From: a virus | Reading direction: 5' to 3' (one strand) | DNA: 64,000 nt | IMG/VR virus record: IMGVR_UViG_3300042502_001732 | Location: 79,933-143,932 of that record | Shown: positions 309 through 55,077 of the stretch, one piece after another | Position numbering within the stretch: position 1 is the first letter of the stretch | How the letters are laid out: each line of letters opens with the position of its first letter | Position numbers and translations under genes: made by a program | Notes under the pieces: generated by a model | Databases searched by the model: none | The model's input: the letters and a program-made list of their open reading frames with translations, nothing else | What the model was told of the DNA's origin: nothing

Positions 309-1145
309 ATGAAAAGCTTTGAAAATTTTTACGAAAACTATACAAACGAGTCCGAATTAAATGAAGGATTCAAAGAGAATTTAATAAATTCATTACTGGC
401 ATTGTTTAGTATGGGAGCCGCTGTTTATGAAGGAAATTATGTTCTTAATTTCTTAAACAATCAACCAGCCCCAATGGAACAAAAAATCGATGCTTTAAAT
501 CAAGTAAAAGACCAAACAGACAATATAAAGATTAAAAAAGCCGTTGATGATGCCATTCAAAAAATAAATCAACCAGCTCAAAAAGTAAAAGAAAACATCA
601 CTGGGGAAAAATCTAAAATATTAGATCTCGCTGTAAAACTTACATTGCCAAGTGAAATATTAGGAACCAATATATATGATAAAGTGAACGATAGTTTTAT
701 GAGACCATATCTTGATGACAAAGGATATTGGACGATTGGGGTTGGTCATTTATTAGGTAGCGAAGCTAAGAAAAATTTTTGGATACAAAATAGAGCAAAG
801 CAAGGAAAATCAGCCACTTTATCAAGACCAGAGGCGCTGGCTCAATTTAAACAAGATCTTGAAAAACATCATAATCTAGCACAAAAGAAATTCCAAAAGG
901 AATGGCATAAATTTCCAAATGAACTCAAAGCGGTGTTAGTAGACATATCATTCAGAGGAGATCTTGAGAAAAAAGGATTAGGTGATTTCGCATTCGTTGA
1001 ACTTTTAAAACAAGGAAAATATAAACAAGCAGCGAAAGAATATTTGGATCACACTGAATATAAATCAAGAATGAAAAAGGATAAACCAGACGGTGTTGTG
1101 AAAAGAATGAACAGAAACGCTGCTATTATATCAAAAACGACATAA
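309..1145 (+). CDS. T4-lysozyme-like (GH24) muramidase with N-terminal extension
   Basis: A 278-residue protein. The C-terminal 175 residues resemble T4 lysozyme: PYLDDKGYWTIGVGHLL matches the T4 segment holding Asp20 and Thr26. The residue aligned to the catalytic Glu11 of T4 appears to be Asn with Asp beside it, so activity is uncertain. The first 100 residues are an extension: MKSFENFYENYTNESELNEG contains an L-N-E site like those cut by T4 prohead protease, followed by a hydrophobic stretch (about residues 27-50) and a helical linker. This suggests a virion-associated wall hydrolase rather than the lysis endolysin, which is the amidase at 31.4-32.2 kb. Confidence 0.8.
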   Translation: MKSFENFYENYTNESELNEGFKENLINSLLALFSMGAAVYEGNYVLNFLNNQPAPMEQKIDALNQVKDQTDNIKIKKAVDDAIQKINQPAQKVKENITGEKSKILDLAVKLTLPSEILGTNIYDKVNDSFMRPYLDDKGYWTIGVGHLLGSEAKKNFWIQNRAKQGKSATLSRPEALAQFKQDLEKHHNLAQKKFQKEWHKFPNELKAVLVDISFRGDLEKKGLGDFAFVELLKQGKYKQAAKEYLDHTEYKSRMKKDKPDGVVKRMNRNAAIISKTT

Positions 1146-1156
1146 CATTAATTCTA

Positions 1157-1188
1157 TTGACAATGTATTTTCATGTGGTAAGTATTAT
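1157..1188 (+). promoter_or_regulatory. Possible sigma70-type promoter before the outer-membrane protein gene
   Basis: TTGACA at 1157-1162 and TATTAT at 1183-1188 are separated by 20 bases, longer than ideal. The TATTATACAT-ATG arrangement resembles the uvsE promoter (TATAATACATC-ATG). Confidence 0.4.
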
Positions 1189-1192
1189 ACAT

Positions 1193-1930
1193 ATGAAAAC
1201 AAAAAACATATTGTTGGCAGTCGCAGCATTTGCTGCATTCACAAGCGTACAAGCTGGTACAGTTGAACCTGTAACTGTTACAGCTGAAGAGTCCTCGACA
1301 CCATCCATTGTTGTTGAAACTGGATATTCTTCTGAAAGCGTGTGGCGCGGTGCTGACCTTGGCAGAGACGAAGCAAGTGCTGTTGTAACTACAACCACAG
1401 AATTACCAATTGGTGTTGGTCTTGATCTGGTCGCTGGTTATAGCAACGCTGACACTGAAGTAAAAGACGAAGAAACCGATCTTTCTGCAGTTTTCTCAAA
1501 AGAGATTGCTGATTATCTTGTTTCTTTGAGTTATACTTGGTATTCGCAAGACTTTGCCAAAGATGGTAGTGGACAAGCGCAAGAAGCTGGTCTTTCGGTT
1601 TCGCGTGAAGTTGGACCTGTTGATGTTACATTCACTCAATACCTTGCGATCAAGGGTGATAATAACTCATACAGCGAACTAGCAGCAACATACAGTGACG
1701 ATTTCGGTCTTCCTGTTGTGTTGGATTTCCGTTCTGAACTCGGCTATCTTGCTCAAGAAGGAAAATGCACTCATTTTGAAACTAGAATTTCAACCGATAT
1801 TCCAGTTTTGCAAGAAGTAACAGCAGTTCCGTTTGTTGCATATTCTCTTGGTCTTGATGACTCTGTAGGTGCGCATTCAGACATGCATAATGTTTTCTTC
1901 GGTGGGATCGAGTTTAAGCGCTCGTTCTGA
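1193..1930 (+). CDS. Outer-membrane beta-barrel-like protein (Gcw_chp/TIGR02001 type), copy 1
   Basis: 245 residues from the ATG at 1193; the longer frame from 1157 would bury the signal peptide. Residues 1-21 form a Sec signal peptide ending VQA. The mature part has alternating amphipathic strands, the ETGYSSESVWRGADLG motif typical of the Gcw_chp family, and a terminal aromatic residue (RSF), as in outer-membrane barrels. A close paralogue lies at 49113-49841. Host-derived barrels on a phage could change the host surface, for example by blocking entry of other phages; that role is inference. It stands alone, with a possible promoter upstream and a hairpin terminator downstream. Confidence 0.75.
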   Translation: MKTKNILLAVAAFAAFTSVQAGTVEPVTVTAEESSTPSIVVETGYSSESVWRGADLGRDEASAVVTTTTELPIGVGLDLVAGYSNADTEVKDEETDLSAVFSKEIADYLVSLSYTWYSQDFAKDGSGQAQEAGLSVSREVGPVDVTFTQYLAIKGDNNSYSELAATYSDDFGLPVVLDFRSELGYLAQEGKCTHFETRISTDIPVLQEVTAVPFVAYSLGLDDSVGAHSDMHNVFFGGIEFKRSF

Positions 1931-2031: not shown

Positions 2032-4095
2032 ATGCGCAAAGATTTTTCAGAATTGTCATTTTTATATGAAAATGTTCTTATAAATGAAATATCTCAAAAA
2101 TATGTGGATGTTATAAAAAAAGCTGCCAATGACCATGTGTTACCATTTGAAAATGTTTTTAACAATAAGTTGAGGATTATACTTCCCATCAAGGGAACTG
2201 AAACATACAATGCTATTTTAAATGATATTTCAAAAATAAAAGATTTTGATCGTTTCGATCCAGAAAAAAAAGAGGTCGTTAGAAAAATAAAACTCGATCC
2301 AAAATATGGCGGGGGAGAGAAAGAACAAAAAATAAACTTGGGAAGAGCGATCAATTCTTTAAAAATTGATCCAGAAACAAAAAAGAAATATTTAAATTGG
2401 TTTGCCAATTACGAATCCAACATACCAGAAATGAATGATCTTAAAAGATTTTCTGTGGTTGTTTCAAGAAGTCCAATTGATGTGTTGAGAATGTCTGATA
2501 TCAGCGATATAGAATCATGTCATAGTCAAGGCGGTGCGTATTTTCAATGTGCGATTCAAGAAGCTATAACAGGCGGGGCTGTGGCTTATGTTGTACACAC
2601 CAGAGATCTTAAAAAATTATCAGACGATGAGTTTCAAAATGAAGAAATATTCGAAGACAAAGAAAGAAACGTCAAAGGAATCGGCGTATGGTCTAGATTA
2701 AGAATAAGAAGATACGAAATAGAAGAAAACAACAATGATATCGGGATTCCAGAAGTCAGAATCTATGGTCGAAAAATACCAGGATTTTATGACACTGTGA
2801 AAAACTTTTTAACAAAATCTCAACAATACAGCGTTGATAATCTTTATAAATTATATAAAAATAAACAACTTAAAAAAACTGGTGGCTCTTATTCAGATTC
2901 CAGCGATAGTCAATTATTCAATAGAATGTACGACACTGATGTTTTTTATGGAAGCATTCGTCACGAAGACAATGATGAAAATGCGGGTAGAGAAGCGCAA
3001 TTCGAAGAAGAATTAGCAGGATTTCAAAACCGTTTCGAGTTTGAACATTGTAATGCGGGTTATAGTATTGATGGAGATGATGATTATGTTTATTATACAG
3101 CGTGGGGAGCAATCAATATAGATCTTGGAGAATATCAAGTGATTGATGATTTTGTAGAATTTGACAGCGAGTATGAGATAAGCCAATTAAAAAAATACAA
3201 CAAAGATTCTCAACACCAATGGGAAAGATCACTGCCATATAATTTTAAAAACAGAAACCAAGAATCCTCAATAAACACTTATAAAAATTTCCTAACAGAT
3301 TTTGAACAATACGATAGCACATCTTTCGTAGAAGACTCGTTGGCTTCGATAAGCATAAAAAGAAATTACAATGAAAAAACGGGAAATTGGGAAAAAAATC
3401 ATTCATCAATGTCGCTGGGAATATTATTCAACAACGAAGAAAGCACAGACGACACTGACGAGTATCTCTCTTTCTTGAGAGAGGTTGACAACATAGATGG
3501 AAACTACGAATCAATCAAAAAAGCATTATTAAAAGCTTTATTGAAAAACGGTTTGATAAAATCAGGACCAGATATGGAAAAATATACCACCATATCAAAA
3601 GAAAAAGAATTTGTAGAAGATATAAAGAACTTTGAATTTGATACGTCAGAAGACGCATTAACAACTGATATATTTTTGGGAAGATACACAGAGCTATCAA
3701 AAGATGTTGCTTACGCAAACATCAGCATGATATTTGGAGAAGCACTTGAAAAATATCTAGACACGTATTACAAATCACCGCAAATCAATACACAGCAAAC
3801 CACATTTGATAAGTTTTTTGAAAACCACTACAACGAAACGCTTGTTAATAAGTATGGAATAGAAAATATCAAATGCAGATACACCACCCAAGCATTCAAC
3901 ACCGAATTATACAACATGAGTTTGGAAATAAAATTCGAAGCATTGAACAGCAAAACCGCGCCAATTATCAAATTCCTAAATGATCACTATGATGATATAA
4001 CCAACATAGCCAAAATGTTTTTCTTAAAACTCGCCAAAATAGAAAACCAGGACACCAAAAGATTACAACAGGTGTATGGTAAGTTATTACAATAA
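2032..4095 (+). CDS. Unknown 687-residue phage protein
   Basis: Not recognised. The N-terminus (RKDFSELSFLYENVLINE) matches the pattern of several other proteins in this window: an acidic residue, spaced leucines, then LY and an L-x-N-E or L-x-E site about 15-20 residues in. It may be a virion-packaging signal. Around residues 145-190 there is a conserved-looking block with SRSPIDVLRMSD, SCHSQGG and YFQCAIQEA, rich in Cys, His and Gly and so a possible active site. The rest is acidic and mixed alpha/beta. A TATAAATA-like AT-rich stretch (ATTAAATA) lies just before the ATG. No signal peptide or membrane segment. Confidence 0.7.
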   Translation: MRKDFSELSFLYENVLINEISQKYVDVIKKAANDHVLPFENVFNNKLRIILPIKGTETYNAILNDISKIKDFDRFDPEKKEVVRKIKLDPKYGGGEKEQKINLGRAINSLKIDPETKKKYLNWFANYESNIPEMNDLKRFSVVVSRSPIDVLRMSDISDIESCHSQGGAYFQCAIQEAITGGAVAYVVHTRDLKKLSDDEFQNEEIFEDKERNVKGIGVWSRLRIRRYEIEENNNDIGIPEVRIYGRKIPGFYDTVKNFLTKSQQYSVDNLYKLYKNKQLKKTGGSYSDSSDSQLFNRMYDTDVFYGSIRHEDNDENAGREAQFEEELAGFQNRFEFEHCNAGYSIDGDDDYVYYTAWGAINIDLGEYQVIDDFVEFDSEYEISQLKKYNKDSQHQWERSLPYNFKNRNQESSINTYKNFLTDFEQYDSTSFVEDSLASISIKRNYNEKTGNWEKNHSSMSLGILFNNEESTDDTDEYLSFLREVDNIDGNYESIKKALLKALLKNGLIKSGPDMEKYTTISKEKEFVEDIKNFEFDTSEDALTTDIFLGRYTELSKDVAYANISMIFGEALEKYLDTYYKSPQINTQQTTFDKFFENHYNETLVNKYGIENIKCRYTTQAFNTELYNMSLEIKFEALNSKTAPIIKFLNDHYDDITNIAKMFFLKLAKIENQDTKRLQQVYGKLLQ

Positions 4096-4506
4096 TCAAC
4101 CTTCCATAACTTCATCTAAATCATAAAAGCTATTTATAAAATTGATATTGGCTTTTTGGATTGGTGTGAATCTGTGTGTAACTTCTTTTTCGTAAAATGT
4201 TTTGTTCTGCGAAAAAACAATTCGAACCCATCCCAAAGAAAAAAGAGTATCGTATACTCCTTTTTTGGAAGAAGTCCCAATACTATCTAAAATTTGTTTT
4301 CCAACGATTTCATGTTGTCCAACACCACCACGCACCACTGCAAAATTACCATGGCGATCCATCCAAAACCCATAAGGTTTGTTCATAGGCAAACGAACAA
4401 TGCTGTTGTGTATTTTCAAGGTGTCTTGATCATCAAAAGCTTTTGTTTTACTTGCTTCTTCAATCATTTCAAGATAAATACTGTTTATATCTAAACGATA
4501 ATTCAT
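4096..4506 (-). CDS. Unknown 136-residue protein
   Basis: Convergent with the 687-residue gene, the stops abutting. The N-terminus MNYRLDINSIYLEMIEEA resembles the leucine/LY-type leader seen in neighbouring genes. The middle (GFWMDRHGNFAVVRGGVGQHE) looks like beta-hairpins. No known motif. Confidence 0.65.
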   Translation of the reverse strand: MNYRLDINSIYLEMIEEASKTKAFDDQDTLKIHNSIVRLPMNKPYGFWMDRHGNFAVVRGGVGQHEIVGKQILDSIGTSSKKGVYDTLFSLGWVRIVFSQNKTFYEKEVTHRFTPIQKANINFINSFYDLDEVMEG

Positions 4507-5020: not shown

Positions 5021-5416
5021 ATGAAAAACAGAGATCAACTATTATTGACAAATATATATACAAGTTCTGTTTTGTCAGAAAGTATAACAGCAGCTGTTAA
5101 AAAAATTTCAATTGAAAACCTTTTACCAGATAAAGATAACATGGAAGTGGCTGTTGATTCTCTAAGAAAAGGCATGCGCAGTTCTGATAATAATCCTATA
5201 TCGGTTTATAAAAATAAAAATAAATATATAGTAGCAGACGGACATCATCGCTTGTTGCAATCCATAATCAACGGCGATGAATCCATCAACGCAAAAATCC
5301 TTCACTCAGACACACCAGTATCCACAACAGGAACAATCAAATTAGACTTATTCGACGGCGATTACTATGGACTGGATTCATCTCTAGAAAACGGATGGTT
5401 AATAAAAAGACTATGA
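5021..5416 (+). CDS. ParB/sulfiredoxin-like domain protein
   Basis: 131 residues. IVADGHHRLLQSIINGD (about residues 69-85) is the DGHHR motif of the ParB N-terminal/sulfiredoxin-like fold, which binds nucleotides or acts as a nuclease in phage proteins. The N-terminus (NRDQLLLTNIYTSSVLSES) carries the shared leucine/IY leader with an L-S-E site. It overlaps the next gene by ATGA, so the two are translationally linked. Confidence 0.65.
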   Translation: MKNRDQLLLTNIYTSSVLSESITAAVKKISIENLLPDKDNMEVAVDSLRKGMRSSDNNPISVYKNKNKYIVADGHHRLLQSIINGDESINAKILHSDTPVSTTGTIKLDLFDGDYYGLDSSLENGWLIKRL

Positions 5417-6267
5417 AAAACGAAGACAGATATTTTTTAGAAGAACTCTATACAGAAATGGCATTGTCCAATCTACAAACGATTGGCAAATGGCAAGACG
5501 ATAAAAATAGACACGGATATGACAAAGCATCAGTAGGAATACTATCATCTCCCGCAGGATTAAAAAAATTAGAAGACACATTCAACAAAATAGGAGGATG
5601 GGACTTTAATCTATATTTCGTAAAATTACCAAACGCATGGAAACAAAGCGAAATGGGACTGGTTGATATCAACAACCTACCACAATTAATCAAAGTCGAA
5701 GCGGGAAAAGATTTCCCCATGCCAACAGACAGCGAAATAACAATCATATTCACAAACAACGCAGCGGCAGAAAAAGTACCATTAACACCATGGACAATAG
5801 CACACAGAATAGGACATTCTTTCGCAGCAACATTCAGAAGAGGAAACGATAAATCTATACAACACTATGATAACGAAATATCAAATATATTAAAAAAATT
5901 ATTAATGTGTTATAATATAAAACCAGAAGGAAATCTGTTATACTCCCAAGCTTATTATATAAGAGATCTATTTCAAAAAATAGGAAAGTTCCGTAGTGCT
6001 AGAATGGGTAAATTAAATCGCCCAGCAGAATTCTATCACGAAGCGTTCTCGTATTGGTTATTACACGATGGAGAACTAAACTTCAATGATCCCCCACAAT
6101 CACTGATAGACAGCAACAAACAAGCATGGGGAACACCAGTGGGTATGAATTATAGATTACAAGATGCAGAAACAGCAGAAGACTTATTATATCAATTAAA
6201 ATATGAATTAGAAGAGAAATTCAATTATATGATAGGAAGACACATCGGCACAACGTCGATTATGTGA
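5413..6267 (+). CDS. Unknown protein with degenerate HxxxH metallopeptidase-like motif
   Basis: The start at 5413 gives an ATGA overlap with the ParB-like gene. 284 residues. The leader NEDRYFLEELYTEMALSN fits the shared N-terminal pattern. WTIAHRIGHSFAATF resembles the HExxH helix of a zinc peptidase with Glu replaced by Arg; a later EFYHEAFSYWLLHDGE could supply another metal ligand. It may be an inactive or altered metallopeptidase; this is tentative. Confidence 0.55.
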   Translation: MKNEDRYFLEELYTEMALSNLQTIGKWQDDKNRHGYDKASVGILSSPAGLKKLEDTFNKIGGWDFNLYFVKLPNAWKQSEMGLVDINNLPQLIKVEAGKDFPMPTDSEITIIFTNNAAAEKVPLTPWTIAHRIGHSFAATFRRGNDKSIQHYDNEISNILKKLLMCYNIKPEGNLLYSQAYYIRDLFQKIGKFRSARMGKLNRPAEFYHEAFSYWLLHDGELNFNDPPQSLIDSNKQAWGTPVGMNYRLQDAETAEDLLYQLKYELEEKFNYMIGRHIGTTSIM

Positions 6268-18585: not shown

Positions 18586-18891
18586 ATGACTACAAAAGAT
18601 CAATATAATTTAGCTAACTTGTATAAGGAATCATACGAAAATGATGACATTTCATTTGATGCTGATTTATCCGATGTTAATTTAACTTACAATGATGAAG
18701 AATCTGCACTTATTGAAAAATATGGCAAATTGGGAGAAAAGCTTGTAAATTACTTTCATGCACTTGAAAATGCACTTAAAAATCCCATGACTAATTTTGC
18801 AACTATTCAACACTTAACGGATAAAATCAATTCCATGCAACATGGTATGCGTATGGTAGATAGTAGAAACAAAGTTGATAGACATTCATAA
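18586..18891 (+). CDS. Unknown 101-residue protein with shared N-terminal leader
   Basis: Isolated rightward gene among leftward ones. The leader TTKDQYNLANLYKESYEND fits the D-x-x-x-L-x-x-LY pattern of the proteins at 2032, 5021 and 5413. The body is helical. TGACTAAATAATACT-ATG upstream resembles the divergent late-promoter form seen before 5021. It may be a virion-packaged or late protein. Confidence 0.6.
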   Translation: MTTKDQYNLANLYKESYENDDISFDADLSDVNLTYNDEESALIEKYGKLGEKLVNYFHALENALKNPMTNFATIQHLTDKINSMQHGMRMVDSRNKVDRHS

Positions 18892-25326: not shown

Positions 25327-25494
25327 TTATGCTCCTGGTTTTGATCCAACTGCGATCTGAGATTTGAAAGATTCTCCACAAAATTCGAAACTCATCACAT
25401 CTCCGAATGGTCCTTCTTCGATGCCAGAAAATTTCACCTCGTCGGTTGAAATCCAACCCCATTGCCCAGCGCAAACCCAAGTTTTTTGTTTCAT
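25327..25494 (-). CDS. Unknown 55-residue protein
   Basis: MKQKTWVCAGQWGWISTDEV ... SKPGA-TAA; small beta-rich domain. Tightly packed between neighbours. Confidence 0.5.
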   Translation of the reverse strand: MKQKTWVCAGQWGWISTDEVKFSGIEEGPFGDVMSFEFCGESFKSQIAVGSKPGA

Positions 25495-44859: not shown

Positions 44860-46923
44860 TTAGTGTATCAATGCAAGATGTGTGACTTTGTCGTATAGAT
44901 GGGGCACAACATACCATTGCTCTGCATCAGATATATCTTTTGGAGATTCGAGTGCACCAATCTCAAGAAGATCTGTTCCCCATGCAACTGATACTGCTTT
45001 CCACTCGCTGCCTAATTTCATGTGTGACATAAGTTTGCTGCTAGAGATTCGATCAAAATCAGTCTTTGCAAGCAGTTTATATGGGTCGAGTTGATAGAGT
45101 TCGCGGTCTTGAATAAAGAAGATATATTTTCCTTTTACTGGAGTAATTTTAGCGGCTTCTTCGAGAGACTCGCCTTCTACTTCTATGTTTTCCAGGCGAA
45201 CTGGACGCTTTGCATAGGCATCAGCTGCTGTAGAAATATGATCTGCTACAGTTTTCCATGCATTTGCATTTGACTTTCCATCTTTTCCTGCTTGTGACAT
45301 ATTAGCGATGCCTTGCGCGTTGTCTGCGAGTGCCTGTAAGAAAACTAGATAGTCTTTAGGGCTTAGCATATCAATTGATGTTATAAGCTTTTGTACAGCT
45401 GGTGTTGGAACAGCTTCTTCGAGTGTCTCTTCCTCCTTAACAAGATTTTTATAGACTCCACCTGGACCAGACAATTTGCTGCCGGCTGGACGATATTTAC
45501 CAAGTTTATACTTTTTATTATAGTCATCGCGACTCATAGTTCCAGCATTTACTCGGGCCATGTCAACTTGCTTGCGGCGCTTGAGTGCCGCATCTGCTGC
45601 TTCATCCATCTTTTCATCGGGGCAATCAGACTCTTCTTTGTATGTGCCGACATGAGGAAGTTTTGGCTCTTTGATGCCCTTTGACTTTTGCTTGAGATAT
45701 TCTTCAGCGTGATCCTTTGCCTCTTGAGGTGCATTGTATCTAACCGCACTTTGGTATATAACTCTTTTAGTTTTCTTATCAATAATTGTCGGACGATATC
45801 CGCCAAACTGACTCTTTTCTGAAGTTGGGAGATAGTCACCAAGCCAGTTGATTGCTTCATCAATTGTTTTTTCTTCAATGCTCTCTTCTTCTTTATAGAC
45901 TGGATTGCTTTTCTGAGATTTGTTGAGGTCTGGATAATACTTGCGCACTGCTTCAATTGCTTTTTTAGCAATTTCTTTTGTCTTTTTAGCACCATTTGGT
46001 TGCATAATTTCAAACCACATATCTTCAACATAGTCATAAATCTTTGGAAAACGATCAAAGATGTCTTCATGACTTAAACGAATAGACACACTTGTGACGT
46101 CCCAAAGTTTTGAATCTGGGGCGTCGACTATGCTTTGTAATTCGTCGATGAGGTCGGCTGGCTTGCGTAATGGCTTGTATGCTTCAGCAACGTCCTTTTC
46201 TTCAAGTTCAGTCTCTTCCTTTAGTTTGATTGTTTTAAGAAGTAAAAATTCTGAGCTGCCCATCTTGCGTTGATTAAACGCAATTGTTGTCTTTGGAAGA
46301 TCTTTTGCCTTGAATGTAATGCTGTTAGTCCCAATTTCTAACACCTTGCCAAAGTTTGTAGTGTCGCCAACCTTTAGGGTGTCGACGATTGACTTGACGT
46401 CTTCGACTCCTTCTTCAAGAGTATCAGCGCTTTCACGAATGGTATTGTTATAGATGTCATTTATCAATGCATACTCATCATCGCTTAATAATGTTTTGAG
46501 ACGTGCACTATAAGCTCTAACTAGCTTTTTACGCTCTTCGTTATTCTTTTTAGCTTCTTCTGTAGATTTTGATGAATAAGGAAAAGATTTAATTTGTGAA
46601 ATAAGCTCTTTTGATTTGCTGTCCTTTAAGATTTTATCAAGTGTGCTCTTTAAGAATTGTGCAGACTCCTTTGCGTCTCTTTCGTCTGCTTTATCTGAAA
46701 GATATCTTTTTATTGCGCCACCAAATATAGCAGCTACACCAATTCCTCCTCCAATTACTAATGCTGCTACAATATCAATAATGTCTTTTACATACATTGA
46801 TTGGATAAGGTTCCAATCAATTGCTTCGTCAAGAGTATCAGACTCTTGCAGTTGAGTTTTGCCAGTTAGAATTGCTGTAGCTGCAGCATACATCGGGTCT
46901 TGGTGATAGTGGAAGTTATTCAT
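44860..46923 (-). CDS. Large protein with capsid-targeting-like leader and many L-x-E sites (687 aa)
   Basis: The leader NNFHYHQDPMYAAATAILTG ends in LQE-S, like the T4 prohead-protease site. A membrane-like helix follows (about 38-60: IVAALVIGGGIGVAAIFGGA). Further LxE or IxE sites (LDE-A, LEE-G, LEE-K, IEE-K, LEE-A twice) separate blocks, so the protein may be cut into several pieces during head maturation. Blocks such as VDTLKVGDTTNFGKVLEIGT look like separate small domains. Likely an internal head or core protein. A late promoter lies 10 bases upstream of the ATG. Confidence 0.7.
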   Translation of the reverse strand: MNNFHYHQDPMYAAATAILTGKTQLQESDTLDEAIDWNLIQSMYVKDIIDIVAALVIGGGIGVAAIFGGAIKRYLSDKADERDAKESAQFLKSTLDKILKDSKSKELISQIKSFPYSSKSTEEAKKNNEERKKLVRAYSARLKTLLSDDEYALINDIYNNTIRESADTLEEGVEDVKSIVDTLKVGDTTNFGKVLEIGTNSITFKAKDLPKTTIAFNQRKMGSSEFLLLKTIKLKEETELEEKDVAEAYKPLRKPADLIDELQSIVDAPDSKLWDVTSVSIRLSHEDIFDRFPKIYDYVEDMWFEIMQPNGAKKTKEIAKKAIEAVRKYYPDLNKSQKSNPVYKEEESIEEKTIDEAINWLGDYLPTSEKSQFGGYRPTIIDKKTKRVIYQSAVRYNAPQEAKDHAEEYLKQKSKGIKEPKLPHVGTYKEESDCPDEKMDEAADAALKRRKQVDMARVNAGTMSRDDYNKKYKLGKYRPAGSKLSGPGGVYKNLVKEEETLEEAVPTPAVQKLITSIDMLSPKDYLVFLQALADNAQGIANMSQAGKDGKSNANAWKTVADHISTAADAYAKRPVRLENIEVEGESLEEAAKITPVKGKYIFFIQDRELYQLDPYKLLAKTDFDRISSSKLMSHMKLGSEWKAVSVAWGTDLLEIGALESPKDISDAEQWYVVPHLYDKVTHLALIH

Positions 46924-46932
46924 GTGTTAATT

Positions 46933-46940
46933 TATTTATA
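46933..46940 (-). promoter_or_regulatory. Late promoter
   Basis: TATAAATA, 10 bases before the 687-residue gene. Confidence 0.7.
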
Positions 46941-46941
46941 T

Positions 46942-47385
46942 TTAGTTTAGTTCGTTAATTTCTAATTTTTGATCGAAGGTTTTGAAATAGTATTTGCTGT
47001 CGCTGTGTTGCTTTGCAATCTCATAGACCTTTTCAGCAGACGTCTTTGGATTTGCGATGTGTGTTACGTCTTGACTATAGACATTAAAATAACTTTCGCC
47101 ATCTTCTTTTTCGATTGTATAGAATGTGGTCTTGGTAATCCACCCTTTGTTCGACTGCTTGAAAATCATAATAGCAATTGTGTCAGCGTCTTCTTGAGCT
47201 GCAGAAAATCCACCATTTTTACCAAATACATGATTGTTTTTTGACTTTATCATTGCAGCACCCTTAGAAGCTTTAAGTTCTTTAAGGGCAGACGCATGCG
47301 ATGCATCTTCTGTTAATGATTCTCTGCCGAGTATCTTTGCTGCAGCGGCATACAACGGGTCTTGGTTGTAATGAAAATTATTCAT
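46942..47385 (-). CDS. Internal head protein candidate, 147 aa
   Basis: NNFHYNQDPLYAAAAKILGR then SLTE-D: nearly the same leader as the 44860 protein. The body (KELKASKGAAMIKSKNNHVF ... FNVYSQDVTH) is beta-rich and basic. Late-type ATAAATAA upstream (47391). Confidence 0.7.
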   Translation of the reverse strand: MNNFHYNQDPLYAAAAKILGRESLTEDASHASALKELKASKGAAMIKSKNNHVFGKNGGFSAAQEDADTIAIMIFKQSNKGWITKTTFYTIEKEDGESYFNVYSQDVTHIANPKTSAEKVYEIAKQHSDSKYYFKTFDQKLEINELN

Positions 47386-47390
47386 ATGTC

Positions 47391-47398
47391 TTATTTAT
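47391..47398 (-). promoter_or_regulatory. Late promoter variant
   Basis: ATAAATAA on the minus strand, overlapping the stop of the next gene upstream. Confidence 0.55.
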
Positions 47399-47892
47399 TC
47401 TGCTTCCTTTGTGCTCTCAATATAGTCACGAGCACTGACAACATATTCTTCTGCCTTTACAAGATTTGCTTGAACGTGCTCTGGTAAATTTTCGTCGTCG
47501 CTTAGCATGTCATGCAATCCTTTTGCGTTGCGAATGATTGTGCGAAGTGCGGTCTTTGCCATGCTGCCTTCAGCGTCATACTCGCCTGCGTCTTGTTCGG
47601 CAGCTTCCTTTACGTTTCCATACTGATATGAAACAGGAACACTTTCTCCATCTTTAAAAGTTTTTGCAGAAGACTTTATGGAATTTAATGCAGTTATAAG
47701 TGAGTTGATCTTCTTTGGATCAAAGTCATCGCCACGTTTTATTGAATCAACAAATTGTTGAAATGATTTGCCTAGCGTGTATAATTCATTGTTGATGACA
47801 TGTCCAGGCAAACGCATAAAAGACTCTTGTAAGTCTTCGGGCTTGCCTTGAAGGATTCTTGTTGCTGCTTCTATAAGCGGGTTTTTATGCAT
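47395..47892 (-). CDS. Internal head protein candidate, 165 aa
   Basis: Shorter leader MHKNPLIEAATRILQGKPED with LQE-S. The C-terminus NLPEHVQANLVKAEEYVVSA recalls a helical domain found in many T4-like phage head-associated proteins. Overlaps its upstream neighbour by 8 bases. Confidence 0.7.
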   Translation of the reverse strand: MHKNPLIEAATRILQGKPEDLQESFMRLPGHVINNELYTLGKSFQQFVDSIKRGDDFDPKKINSLITALNSIKSSAKTFKDGESVPVSYQYGNVKEAAEQDAGEYDAEGSMAKTALRTIIRNAKGLHDMLSDDENLPEHVQANLVKAEEYVVSARDYIESTKEAE

Positions 47893-48454
47893 ATCTTTCG
47901 TTTCTATTTTTCCAAATTTGTGCTGCCTTGTAGATTAATGCAGAGATGTTGCTTGATTCTTTATAACCAGAACTTTCTCCTCCGTCAAAATATCCATCAA
48001 GCGCAAATAAGAAATCTTCCATTTCATCTTCATCCAGATTGCGCACTGCTCCCATTGCCTTTTTAGCAAGTGGAAATTTAGCGGTGTAATATTCCTGTAG
48101 TGTCTCACCTTTATCTTCAACACCTTCATTATAACCATACTTTTCACCGGTCTTTAATCCGCTTGCTGCTCTTGCTGCGTCATAGAGGTGATCACTTATT
48201 TTTTTAATGACGCCTCTTGGATTGCCTTTGTGATCACGTGATGATGCATATTTTGTCATCTCGTCCATATGATCTGCAAATGCAAGTAAAAATTCTTGCA
48301 TTTGACTTCTATTTAAATTGTCAATTTCTGCTAATAGGCGTTTTATAATTGCGCTCTGTGCTTCTTGAAGACACCCGTCTGAGGTCTTGCCCTCCAGAAT
48401 CGTTGCTGCAGCACTCACAAGAGAGTCATTTTTATAGTTGTCAAAGGGTTGCAT
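47885..48454 (-). CDS. Internal head protein candidate, 189 aa
   Basis: QPFDNYKNDSLVSAAATILE then GCLQE-A. Two similar helical blocks (MQEFLLAFADHMDEMTKYAS and MEDFLFALDGYFDGGESSGY) suggest an internal duplication. Late promoter at 48462. Confidence 0.7.
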   Translation of the reverse strand: MQPFDNYKNDSLVSAAATILEGKTSDGCLQEAQSAIIKRLLAEIDNLNRSQMQEFLLAFADHMDEMTKYASSRDHKGNPRGVIKKISDHLYDAARAASGLKTGEKYGYNEGVEDKGETLQEYYTAKFPLAKKAMGAVRNLDEDEMEDFLFALDGYFDGGESSGYKESSNISALIYKAAQIWKNRNERYA

Positions 48455-48461
48455 ATAAGAC

Positions 48462-48469
48462 TATTTATA
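48462..48469 (-). promoter_or_regulatory. Late promoter
   Basis: TATAAATA with TATAAATAGTC context, 8 bases before the 47885 gene start. Confidence 0.7.
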
Positions 48470-48491
48470 CAATTTCATAATTCGAAAAATG

Positions 48492-48499
48492 TATAAATA
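48492..48499 (+). promoter_or_regulatory. Late promoter, rightward
   Basis: TATAAATAAG, 9 bases before the ATG at 48509; forms a divergent pair with the leftward late promoter at 48462. Confidence 0.7.
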
Positions 48500-48508
48500 A
48501 GATAGATT

Positions 48509-48967
48509 ATGAATAATTTCACATCATACAAAGAAGACCCATTGGTTTCTGCCGCTGCACATGTGTTGTCTCAAGAACAATTAAGCGAAGGCATTGTAAC
48601 CTTTCCGAGCTATCGTGCCAAAGGCAAAGGCATCTACATTGGAAAAGATCTCATAAGCAAAGACGATTTTGGTTCATTTGTCGATACTGTAAACAGACAA
48701 GTAGACAAGTTTCCACTCTTTGGAAAATATCTTGAAGTTCACTCTGGCTCTGACAGCATTCGCGGAGAGTGTGTTGGCTATGCTCATATTCATGGCGCGC
48801 CAATGCTGCTCATTCGCGACAGCAACTATAAAGAAGTATGGATTGATGCAGATCGTGCTCAACGTGAGATTTATGCATTTACTCCAGCTAAAAAGGATGT
48901 CACTACAACCGGCACCGGATCAAGTGATAATCCAATGCTTTACAGCTTTGGCAAGACTAACTATTAA
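48509..48967 (+). CDS. Internal head protein candidate, 152 aa (rightward)
   Basis: NNFTSYKEDPLVSAAAHVLS with QLSE-G: same leader family on the opposite strand. The body ECVGYAHIHGAPMLLIRDSN and VWIDADRAQREIYAF is mixed alpha/beta. That the leader is kept after inversion supports a functional signal. Confidence 0.7.
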   Translation: MNNFTSYKEDPLVSAAAHVLSQEQLSEGIVTFPSYRAKGKGIYIGKDLISKDDFGSFVDTVNRQVDKFPLFGKYLEVHSGSDSIRGECVGYAHIHGAPMLLIRDSNYKEVWIDADRAQREIYAFTPAKKDVTTTGTGSSDNPMLYSFGKTNY

Positions 48968-49112: not shown

Positions 49113-49841
49113 TTAGAATGTCTTCTTAAACTCAATTCCACCGAAGAAAAGATTCTTCATGTCTGAATGCACACCAACCGAGTCATCAAGACCAAGTGAG
49201 TATGAGACAAACGGAACAGCGGTCACGCCTTGCACAACTGGAATGTCAGTCGACACAGTGGTCTCAAAGTGAGTACACTGTCCTTCTTGAGCGAGATAGC
49301 CAAGCTCAGCGCGAAAGTCAAGCATCAATGAAGATCCAAAATCATCACTGTATGTTGCAGCAAGTTCGCTATAGCTGTTATTGTCACCAACAAGTCCGAC
49401 ATACTGAGTAAGCGAAAGATCGATTGGACCAACTGCACGTGATACAGTCAAGCCAGCTTCTTGCGATTGTCCTTCCTGTCCTGCATAGTCTTGCGAATAC
49501 CAGGTATAGCTCAAAGATACGAGATAGTCAGCAACACTCTTAGAAAAGATTGCAGAGAGCTCAGTAGCTTCGTCCTTCCCAGTTGTTTCAGCGTTTGCAT
49601 AGTCAGCGCTAAGTGCCAACGAAACGTCCGCAGGAAGTTCAGTTGTCGTTTTGACGATTGCATTTGCTTCATTTGCACCTAGATCAGCACCACGCCAAAC
49701 CTTATCAGAAGAGTAGCCAGTTTCAAGCGTCACCGGCGTGAATGCTGAAGGAGCGTCTTCGATTGGGCCTGCATAGGCATAGTTAAGAGCAGCAAGTGCT
49801 GCAATAAGTCCGACTTTAACGATTTGTGTTTGTTTTTTCAT
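49113..49841 (-). CDS. Outer-membrane beta-barrel-like protein (Gcw_chp type), copy 2
   Basis: The start at 49841 (MKKQTQIVKVGLIAALAALN) gives a signal peptide ending YAYA. ETGYSSDKVWRGADLG, VADYLVSLSYTWYSQDYAG and the final KKTF match copy 1 at 1193 over the whole length. Placed between tRNA genes with its own terminator. Function as for copy 1; the two differ mostly in loop regions. Confidence 0.75.
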   Translation of the reverse strand: MKKQTQIVKVGLIAALAALNYAYAGPIEDAPSAFTPVTLETGYSSDKVWRGADLGANEANAIVKTTTELPADVSLALSADYANAETTGKDEATELSAIFSKSVADYLVSLSYTWYSQDYAGQEGQSQEAGLTVSRAVGPIDLSLTQYVGLVGDNNSYSELAATYSDDFGSSLMLDFRAELGYLAQEGQCTHFETTVSTDIPVVQGVTAVPFVSYSLGLDDSVGVHSDMKNLFFGGIEFKKTF

Positions 49842-49874
49842 ATTATAGTTCATTTTGTTTTTCAGGGGGAGAAG

Positions 49875-54071: not shown

Positions 54072-54497
54072 TTAACGTTTGATCAGGTCAGACACAGCAC
54101 GTGTCATTTTACCAATGTCAGCCATTGTTGGAAAGACACTGTTCGGGCTGTCGCCACCTCTAATTGAGAGGATTGGCTTGTGTGTGCCGGTTTTGGCGAG
54201 TGCCATATTGCCGCGAATATAGTCATCAGCACCCATCTTGCCCATGCTCATAGTGAGCGTATACTCTTGTCCACCAATCTCAAACGAGACACCAGTATAG
54301 CCAGAGTCGAAAAATTTGGCGTGTGTGATTGACCCACGGGGCGTGTCGGCAGAATTTAAAATTGTTTGCAGATAATCTTGAACGCTTTCTGGAACAGACC
54401 GTCCAAAGCCAGTGACTGGTGCAATAGCGACCTTTTCGAGAATTTGCTTTGCAGCTTCAACTAGACTGTCTGGTTGTGTAGAATTAAATGCGTTCAT
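54072..54497 (-). CDS. Internal head protein candidate, 141 aa
   Basis: Leader NAFNSTQPDSLVEAAKQILE is of the same family as those at 44.9-48.5 kb, though a clear L-x-E site is missing. The body has VSFEIGGQEYTLTMSMGKMG. Late promoter TATAAATA at 54503. Confidence 0.6.
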   Translation of the reverse strand: MNAFNSTQPDSLVEAAKQILEKVAIAPVTGFGRSVPESVQDYLQTILNSADTPRGSITHAKFFDSGYTGVSFEIGGQEYTLTMSMGKMGADDYIRGNMALAKTGTHKPILSIRGGDSPNSVFPTMADIGKMTRAVSDLIKR

Positions 54498-54502
54498 ACT
54501 AC

Positions 54503-54510
54503 TATTTATA
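54503..54510 (-). promoter_or_regulatory. Late promoter
   Basis: TATAAATA, 5 bases before the 54072 gene start and 5 bases after a tRNA-Tyr 3' end. Confidence 0.7.
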
Positions 54511-54708: not shown

Positions 54709-55077
54709 CTACCAAATAGAACCAGGTTTAGAGTTGGGTCTATTTTTATCCCAAAAATGCTTACCAGCAGCAGTTTGATCTGAGCTACGATATATTTTAT
54801 AACCACGTTTCGATAAAATATCATAAACCATTTTTGCTAGTCCCTTACCTCTGTGCTCTTTAGATACCCAAATATCTATAGCTTTTAAATTTTTATTATC
54901 GTGTTTAAATGTAAATGTACCGATTTTTATTCTATCATCAATAAGATATACATATATCTCATCCAAGTAACTATCGATATCTATTTTAATATCATGGGTT
55001 ATTTTTTTACTAAAAATTGATTTGAGTTTATCAATAAAACTTTCTCGTATAAAATACTGTTTAAATGATATAATCAT
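54709..55077 (-). CDS. GNAT-family acetyltransferase with T4-type capsid-targeting leader
   Basis: 122 residues. IDIWVSKEHRGKGLAKMVYD is GNAT motif A (acetyl-CoA binding). The N-terminus MIISFKQYFIRESFIDKL closely resembles the T4 internal-protein leader (MKTYQEFIAE) with a cut after IRE. It may be packed in the head and injected to modify host proteins; this is inference. CATAAATA late-type promoter upstream. Confidence 0.75.
   Translation of the reverse strand: MIISFKQYFIRESFIDKLKSIFSKKITHDIKIDIDSYLDEIYVYLIDDRIKIGTFTFKHDNKNLKAIDIWVSKEHRGKGLAKMVYDILSKRGYKIYRSSDQTAAGKHFWDKNRPNSKPGSIW

Follow-up and report, generated by a model that had tools for sequence, protein, structure and literature searches.

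Shuffled cassettes bounded by gp21-type sites behind a new type of leader: putative head cargo in a T4-like phage

The leaders of the T4 internal head proteins are about 10 amino acids long and belong to the MKTYQEFIAE type. The T4 proteins IPI-IPIII and Alt are products of late genes and are found inside the head; the targeting role of their leader, the capsid targeting sequence (CTS), is established experimentally, with the IPIII leader alone sufficient for targeting, and the prohead protease gp21 cleaves after L/I-x-E, also cutting the core scaffold gp22 into pieces (PMC9026906). Proteins of a comparable design are encoded in the 64,000-nucleotide stretch analysed here (the window), which is the right end (79,933-143,932) of a 143,932-base uncultured virus contig, IMG/VR record IMGVR_UViG_3300042502_001732. 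As in T4, a short N-terminal leader ending in (L/I)-x-E precedes unrelated cargoes, and a gp21 of the S77 family is available; however, the T4 CTS proteins have one cargo each, whereas the leader in the window spans 20-34 amino acids, has a DPLxxAAxxIL core followed at a variable distance by [LI]xE, and also stands in front of multi-cassette chains. These proteins are probably head cargo cassettes, with the leader serving as the prohead entry signal and gp21 cleavage as the means of release.

The contig encodes gp21 (L049:245-889; Pfam PF03420 Peptidase_S77, E-value 5.6e-30) and the gp23 shell protein, i.e. the major capsid protein (Pfam Gp23, E-value 3e-84), directly preceded by a gp22-like scaffold open reading frame (ORF) that is recognized by its position and a weak T4_CASP match. 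Given these three genes, the virus is a T4-like phage. The gp23 sequence contains a site, IQE/ANTG, near residue 56 (here and below, a slash marks a predicted cleavage position), as expected for gp21 processing.

Six genes of the window, named hereafter by their first coordinate, encode the leader:
44860..46923, minus strand, 687-amino-acid polyprotein ORF, leader and about seven modules joined at [LIVM]xE
46942..47385, minus strand, 147-amino-acid single-cargo gene, leader MNNFHYNQDPLYAAAAKILGRESLTE/
47395..47892, minus strand, 165-amino-acid gene, leader MHKNPLIEAATRILQGKPEDLQE/
47885..48454, minus strand, 189-amino-acid gene, leader MQPFDNYKNDSLVSAAATILEGKTSDGCLQE/, two modules split by LQE/YYTAKF
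48509..48967, plus strand, 152-amino-acid divergent gene, leader MNNFTSYKEDPLVSAAAHVLSQEQLSE/
54072..54497, minus strand, 141-amino-acid gene, leader MNAFNSTQPDSLVEAAKQILE/KVAIAP, site aligned with LTE/KVRIAP of the ortholog L039:2617-3042

The existence of these ORFs and the kinship of their leaders, proposed in an earlier reading of the DNA made without database searches (the sequence-only reading), are borne out by leave-one-out profiles run against the 2237 possible starts of the 144-kb contig: all six leaders are recovered (E-values of 2.6e-13, 6.5e-16, 2.9e-4, 1.1e-12, 1.8e-10 and 1.6e-4), and the only other starts that fall below an E-value of 0.4 in that scan are internal restarts within these six genes. 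The wider profile search suggested by the same reading, with a profile of 14 leaders, yields exactly six matches in the contig and detects new members in contig G008 (IMGVR_UViG_3300042889_002533), which was left out of profile building, the best two with E-values of 6e-14 and 9e-7. No match was found when the leader was searched directly in cultured phages, and Pfam and PHROGs scans of the six proteins gave weak matches only, all under the cut-offs. The leader is thus shared, but the exact opening initially given for it, N-F-x(4-6)-D-P-L-x-x-A-A-x-x-I-L, is looser in several genes: the 47395 product opens with MHKNPLIEAATRIL, lacking N-F, and the core is DPM in 44860 and DSL in 47885 and 54072. 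The leaders of the first five genes end in L-x-E as claimed, and the sixth, 54072, which had been thought to lack the site, has one as well, given that AAKQILE/KVAIAP aligns with AAAKILSTPLTE/KVRIAP in the ortholog; all six accordingly end in [LI]xE. The leader pattern had been described as surviving the inversion of one gene, 48509. This gene is indeed divergent, but all relatives in which it was located show it in that orientation too, so that the arrangement is old rather than the outcome of a recent event. An AlphaFold model of the 48509 protein (predicted local distance difference test score, pLDDT, of 50) has only a beta-rich core.

What the sequence-only reading overlooked is the nature of the longest product. 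The 44860 protein reads as a polyprotein, that is, a chain of modules rather than one cargo:
46843..46923, minus strand, leader, residues 1-27, MNNFHYHQDPMYAAATAILTGKTQLQE/
46411..46824, minus strand, module 1, residues 34-171, absent in relatives L016 and L018
46216..46410, minus strand, module 2, residues 172-236, GVEDVK...TNFGKVLE...KLKE
45856..46182, minus strand, module 3, residues 248-356, AYKPLRKP...TIDE
45601..45855, minus strand, module 4, residues 357-441, AINWLGDY...KMDE
45415..45600, minus strand, module 5, residues 442-503, RRKQ...YNKKYKLGKY...LEE
45157..45414, minus strand, module 6, residues 504-589, shares homology, LxE to LxE, with the first half of the 47885 body
44860..45156, minus strand, module 7, residues 590-687, and stop codon

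The polyprotein had no match in cultured phages, and no Pfam domain scored above the cut-off in any window-type polyprotein scanned. Its relatives differ in length by whole segments (611 or more, 687, 698, 716, 818 and 953 amino acids). In L016 and L018, the leader joins module 2 directly, at LNE/G or ILE/G; in L016, the absence of the 144-residue first module leaves the joint PLNE/GVED, compared with TLEE/GVED in the window. Conversely, additional modules are present in L014 (two before AYKPLRKP and one before AAKITP), in L016 (a 104-residue module ending in a copy of the joint DEKMDE) and in L018 (a DUF6321-like module after LVKE/). Module 5 recurs in a distant phage (L021-L023), where it is part of another, short protein.

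The modules also move between genes. Most of the bodies are unrelated, but the sequence-only reading was partly wrong in calling all of them so: residues 28-121 of 47885 match residues 500-589 of 44860 (E-value 8e-5), and in each of the two proteins the matching stretch is bounded by LxE on either side. In L011, a 47395-type leader is joined at LQE to the first half of the 47885 body, to which the latter half of the 47395 body is attached; the remaining half of the 47885 body has moved to a place after a leader and a module that are both new. Module 2 occurs in about ten contexts, namely, after leaders of the new type, in other polyproteins and in gp22, always preceded by [LI]xE, and upstream of it these contexts have little in common besides that site. 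In L036, it is found in two separate small genes: in one it stands alone after a DPLY-type leader, and in the other it follows another short opening, again with LDE at its end. The gp22 of L064 has module 2 fused to it (59% identity, E-value 3e-17), ahead of its T4_CASP domain; this ORF stands between gp21 and gp23 (E-value 5.6e-61 for T4_CASP and 8e-135 for Gp23 downstream), and the same fusion is present in L063, from another metagenome. Hence, in at least one phage, the cassette is placed in the prohead core.

Rearrangements are concentrated at the sites. In a sample of 26 modular proteins, which are related so that the counts are not fully independent, 67 of the 125 unique homology breakpoints lie within 4 amino acids of [LIVM]xE, compared with the expected 30.5 (a value reached in 0 of 2000 random shifts/permutations). 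The ends of clean large indels nearly all fall within 5 amino acids of a site, versus about 23% of positions. Module boundaries coincide with predicted protease sites, as would be the case in a prohead-protease polyprotein. The most serious alternative is that prohead targeting by the leader holds, whereas the LxE joints within the chain are only flexible, Glu-rich, recombination-tolerant linkers of an uncut, bead-on-string internal protein. The joints are indeed often repetitive (EETLEEA), repeated joint DNA could favour recombination, and LxE motifs are no more numerous than chance predicts; yet, the breakpoints favour [LIVM]xE over [^LIVM]xE (z of 8.3 versus 2.9, the latter being a weak enrichment), with no enrichment at [LI]xD or [LI]xK, the joint sequences are diverse (LNE/G, ILE/G, LQE/Y, MNE/, ITE/V) and have only hydrophobic-x-E in common, and a module has been spliced into gp22, whose T4 representative gp21 cleaves into pieces (PMC9026906). 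Uncut linkers are therefore unlikely.

Some observations weigh against cleavable head cargo nevertheless. LxE motifs are not overrepresented (z of 1-2); motif excess was dropped as evidence, being not significant, and the signal therefore lies in the positions of the motifs only. Some joints have V, M or an aromatic residue at P3 (VAE, MDE, VKE, YFE), outside the L/I rule of T4, and one clean indel end, that of a 29-amino-acid extension in L013, L014 and L016, is away from any site. LxE motifs also occur inside modules (VLE 196, IDE 261) and would have to be buried. An AlphaFold model of the polyprotein was too poor (pLDDT 39) to be used for domain borders. Finally, the phage is known from uncultured contig sequence alone.

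The leader itself appears to be maintained as a protein signal. [LI]xE is present at residues 15-35 in 19 of the 19 leaders of the family, compared with 24% of other ORFs; in two of the leaders the first site has V at P3 and is followed by a further [LI]xE. The distance from the DPLxxAA core to [LI]xE shifts by about ten residues, and the site stays at the border of the body. The leaders of 44860 and 46942 have 15 of 20 residues in common, nine of them encoded by different codons (9 synonymous and 5 non-synonymous codon differences among the 20), so that selection keeps the protein sequence of the leader. It is conceivable that the common N-terminus is a relic of duplication, or a segment binding the tail, baseplate or a host target, with LxE incidental to it, inasmuch as four of the leaders are close (MNNF...) and most of the leader genes belong to one cluster. 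The synonymous differences combined with mostly unrelated bodies, the retention of [LI]xE despite its shifting position, and the occurrence of the same modules in gp22 and behind T4-type leaders make this quite improbable.

A T4-type late promoter box, TATAAATA, is located 5-9 nucleotides before four of the six leader genes:
46933..46940, minus strand, TATAAATA, 9 nucleotides before the polyprotein ATG
48462..48469, minus strand, TATAAATA, 7 nucleotides before the 47885 gene
48492..48499, plus strand, TATAAATA, 9 nucleotides before the divergent 48509 gene
54503..54510, minus strand, TATAAATA, 5 nucleotides before the 54072 gene

Of the other two, 46942 is preceded by AATAAATA, and 47395 comes after 47885 with the same orientation; the six genes are probably expressed late. 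The leader genes lie in a variable stretch next to about 20 clustered tRNA genes, which would suit ordinary early or accessory cytoplasmic proteins with a leader used for expression rather than targeting, but the late boxes, the conservation of the leader at the protein rather than DNA level and the gp22 fusion leave hardly any room for such an explanation. Across the whole contig, TATAAATA (with at most one mismatch) clusters 5-7 nucleotides before start codons, in 24 of 163 ORFs; in the window, where examples are found at 46933, 48462, 48492, 50966, 54503, 56637 and 63219, it is about three times commoner than expected. Boxes this close to the starts would give very short or leaderless late mRNAs.

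Connections to T4-type leaders come from cyanophages. The C-terminal module of 47395 is also present in cyanophages S-H9-1 and S-WAM2 (46% identity, E-value 7e-14), where its copies are located behind MKTFKQLRE/, LQE/ and MKE/, the first of which resembles the T4 internal-protein leader. In virions of cyanophage S-CREM2, mass spectrometry has detected proteins that open with leaders of the T4 type (MKNFSSFLTE, MKDFDSFLEE, MKDLHSFLTE, VKRFDAFLTE), namely a cytidylyltransferase, a SAM (S-adenosylmethionine) hydrolase, a kinase, a Cas9-like protein and small proteins, and in addition the modular protein gp160, although the authors note that some such proteins were possibly co-purified rather than packaged (PMC10665884). 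S-CREM2 gp160 has two modules in common with P-TIM68 gp159; the latter also contains the DUF6321-like module that relatives of the window polyprotein have. Because none of these proteins is an ortholog of a window protein, their support is by analogy and through common cassettes. Two cyanophage leaders, NPLLDISKVYQEQVAE and MINPLNELSDIYLGQISE, that by eye are similar to the DPLxxAA leader are unrecognized by the profile and are not claimed as members.

A leader of the T4 type is encoded in the window as well:
54709..55077, minus strand, GNAT acetyltransferase-like protein, T4-type leader MIISFKQYFIRE/S, TAAATA box 6 nucleotides before the start

Its product is a probable head cargo with a second, classical type of leader in the same phage. 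The DPLxxAA leader has a different motif and did not match the T4 CTS type (MKTYQEFIAE); together with the separate T4-type leader of 54709, this indicates that it is CTS-like in its predicted working and not a member of the T4 CTS family. Overall, S77 gp21, the late-promoter-like boxes, the mobile modules and the cyanophage virion data all fit a head-entry leader of new sequence that ends at L-x-E, so that the central proposal of the sequence-only reading is supported, by inference. In the same genome, a Phage lysozyme domain protein (window 309-1145, plus strand, Pfam E-value 1e-7) opens with MKSFENFYENYTNESELNE/G, a T4-type leader followed by LNE, and is possibly a packaged lysozyme. Elsewhere, at L058:3595-6784, a cytidylyltransferase with a T4-type leader, a 658-amino-acid modular protein and a MKSFGEYIAE/A protein adjoin, much as in cyanophages, which would make the region a conserved head-cargo locus.

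Several other known systems share features with the window proteins. The gp22 scaffold of T4 is a prohead core protein cut by gp21 at several L/I-x-E sites, and its L064 version carries a homolog of module 2, but the pieces of gp22 are waste from the scaffold and for the most part do not stay in the head, whereas a T4_CASP domain is missing from the window polyprotein, which resembles a chain of cargoes. P-TIM68 gp159, S-H9-1 gp147/gp148, S-CREM2 gp160 and Flavobacterium phage immuto gp079 are likewise chains of small domains with [LIVM]xE joints, with two modules in common with the window family or its relatives, but their leaders are of the T4 or other types and are unmatched by the DPLxxAA profile. 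Polyvalent proteins are phage proteins with several domains that are proposed to be carried in the head and processed, the processing being predicted to rely on embedded zincin-like or assemblin-like peptidase domains (Iyer et al. 2017, PMC5512222); in window-type polyproteins, Pfam scans found no embedded peptidase, ADP-ribosyltransferase (ART), lysozyme or other catalytic domains, and their joints fit the phage's own gp21. The ejection proteins of the giant phages SPN3US and phiKZ are head proteins with N-terminal propeptides that are cut after a short E-ending motif, but the protease is diverged, the propeptides are mostly 111-254 residues long and, in the parts of the source consulted, no cassette shuffling at the sites is reported (PMC10052503).

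A few further features of these genomes deserve mention. An opening of the form ...L..LY.E... recurs on unrelated proteins (FSELSFLYENVLINE, NRDQLLLTNIYTSSVLSE, EDRYFLEELYTE, KDQYNLANLYKE and KYIELIDSVYSSILEE) at window positions 2032-4095, 4096-4506, 5021-5416, 5395-6267 and 18586-18891, and also at contig positions 25485, 70511, 77948 and 78687; it is a possible third leader family. A 316-amino-acid ORF of the distant phage G008 (L037:316-1266) has, in addition to its N-terminal leader, another leader-like segment close to the C-terminal end, MSE/DNMNYSNIQDDPLVEIAKQF. The paralogs at window 1157-1930 (plus strand) and 49113-49853 (minus strand), with a further copy in relative L018:7567, have signal-peptide-like starts and the motif ETGYSS..WRGADLG, and their products seem to resemble bacterial porin-like outer membrane proteins.

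Under the head-cargo interpretation, the DPLxxAAxxIL...[LI]xE leader would carry late-made proteins into the assembling prohead core, after which the S77 prohead protease gp21 would cleave after [LI]xE. The single-cargo genes 46942, 48509 and 54072 would each deliver one body behind the leader, and the multi-cargo genes 44860, 47395 and 47885 have several modules in series, every joint being a gp21-type site. Each targeted chain of this kind would yield a number of small head proteins on cleavage, which presumably enter the head and leave it together with the DNA. As all cassettes are bounded by the same three-residue site, they could be gained, lost, and moved between genes or into gp22 without losing targeting or release. 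Analogy with T4 Alt and IPI is the only ground on which cargo roles in takeover or anti-defence are likely. Head cargo that is directed by a leader and trimmed by a protease is already known from T4; the leader sequence and the gp21-jointed cassette polyprotein are undescribed as far as the literature searches show, and no description of prohead-protease polyproteins of this kind was found in the literature searched.

A broader generalization, for which the balance of evidence is moderately favourable, is that the hydrophobic-x-E prohead site is a universal joint of mobile cassettes that make up shuffled, gp21-cut polyproteins with at least two interchangeable leaders (T4-type and DPLxxAA-type), gp22 occasionally being the carrier. 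If so, any LxE-flanked domain behind a leader would become head cargo, and a three-residue protease site would explain the large, changeable sets of injected proteins in T4-like phages. It would further provide a second, independent head-entry leader for the engineering of protein delivery and a sequence rule for head cargo among the very many uncharacterized genes of cyanophages and other T4-like phages.

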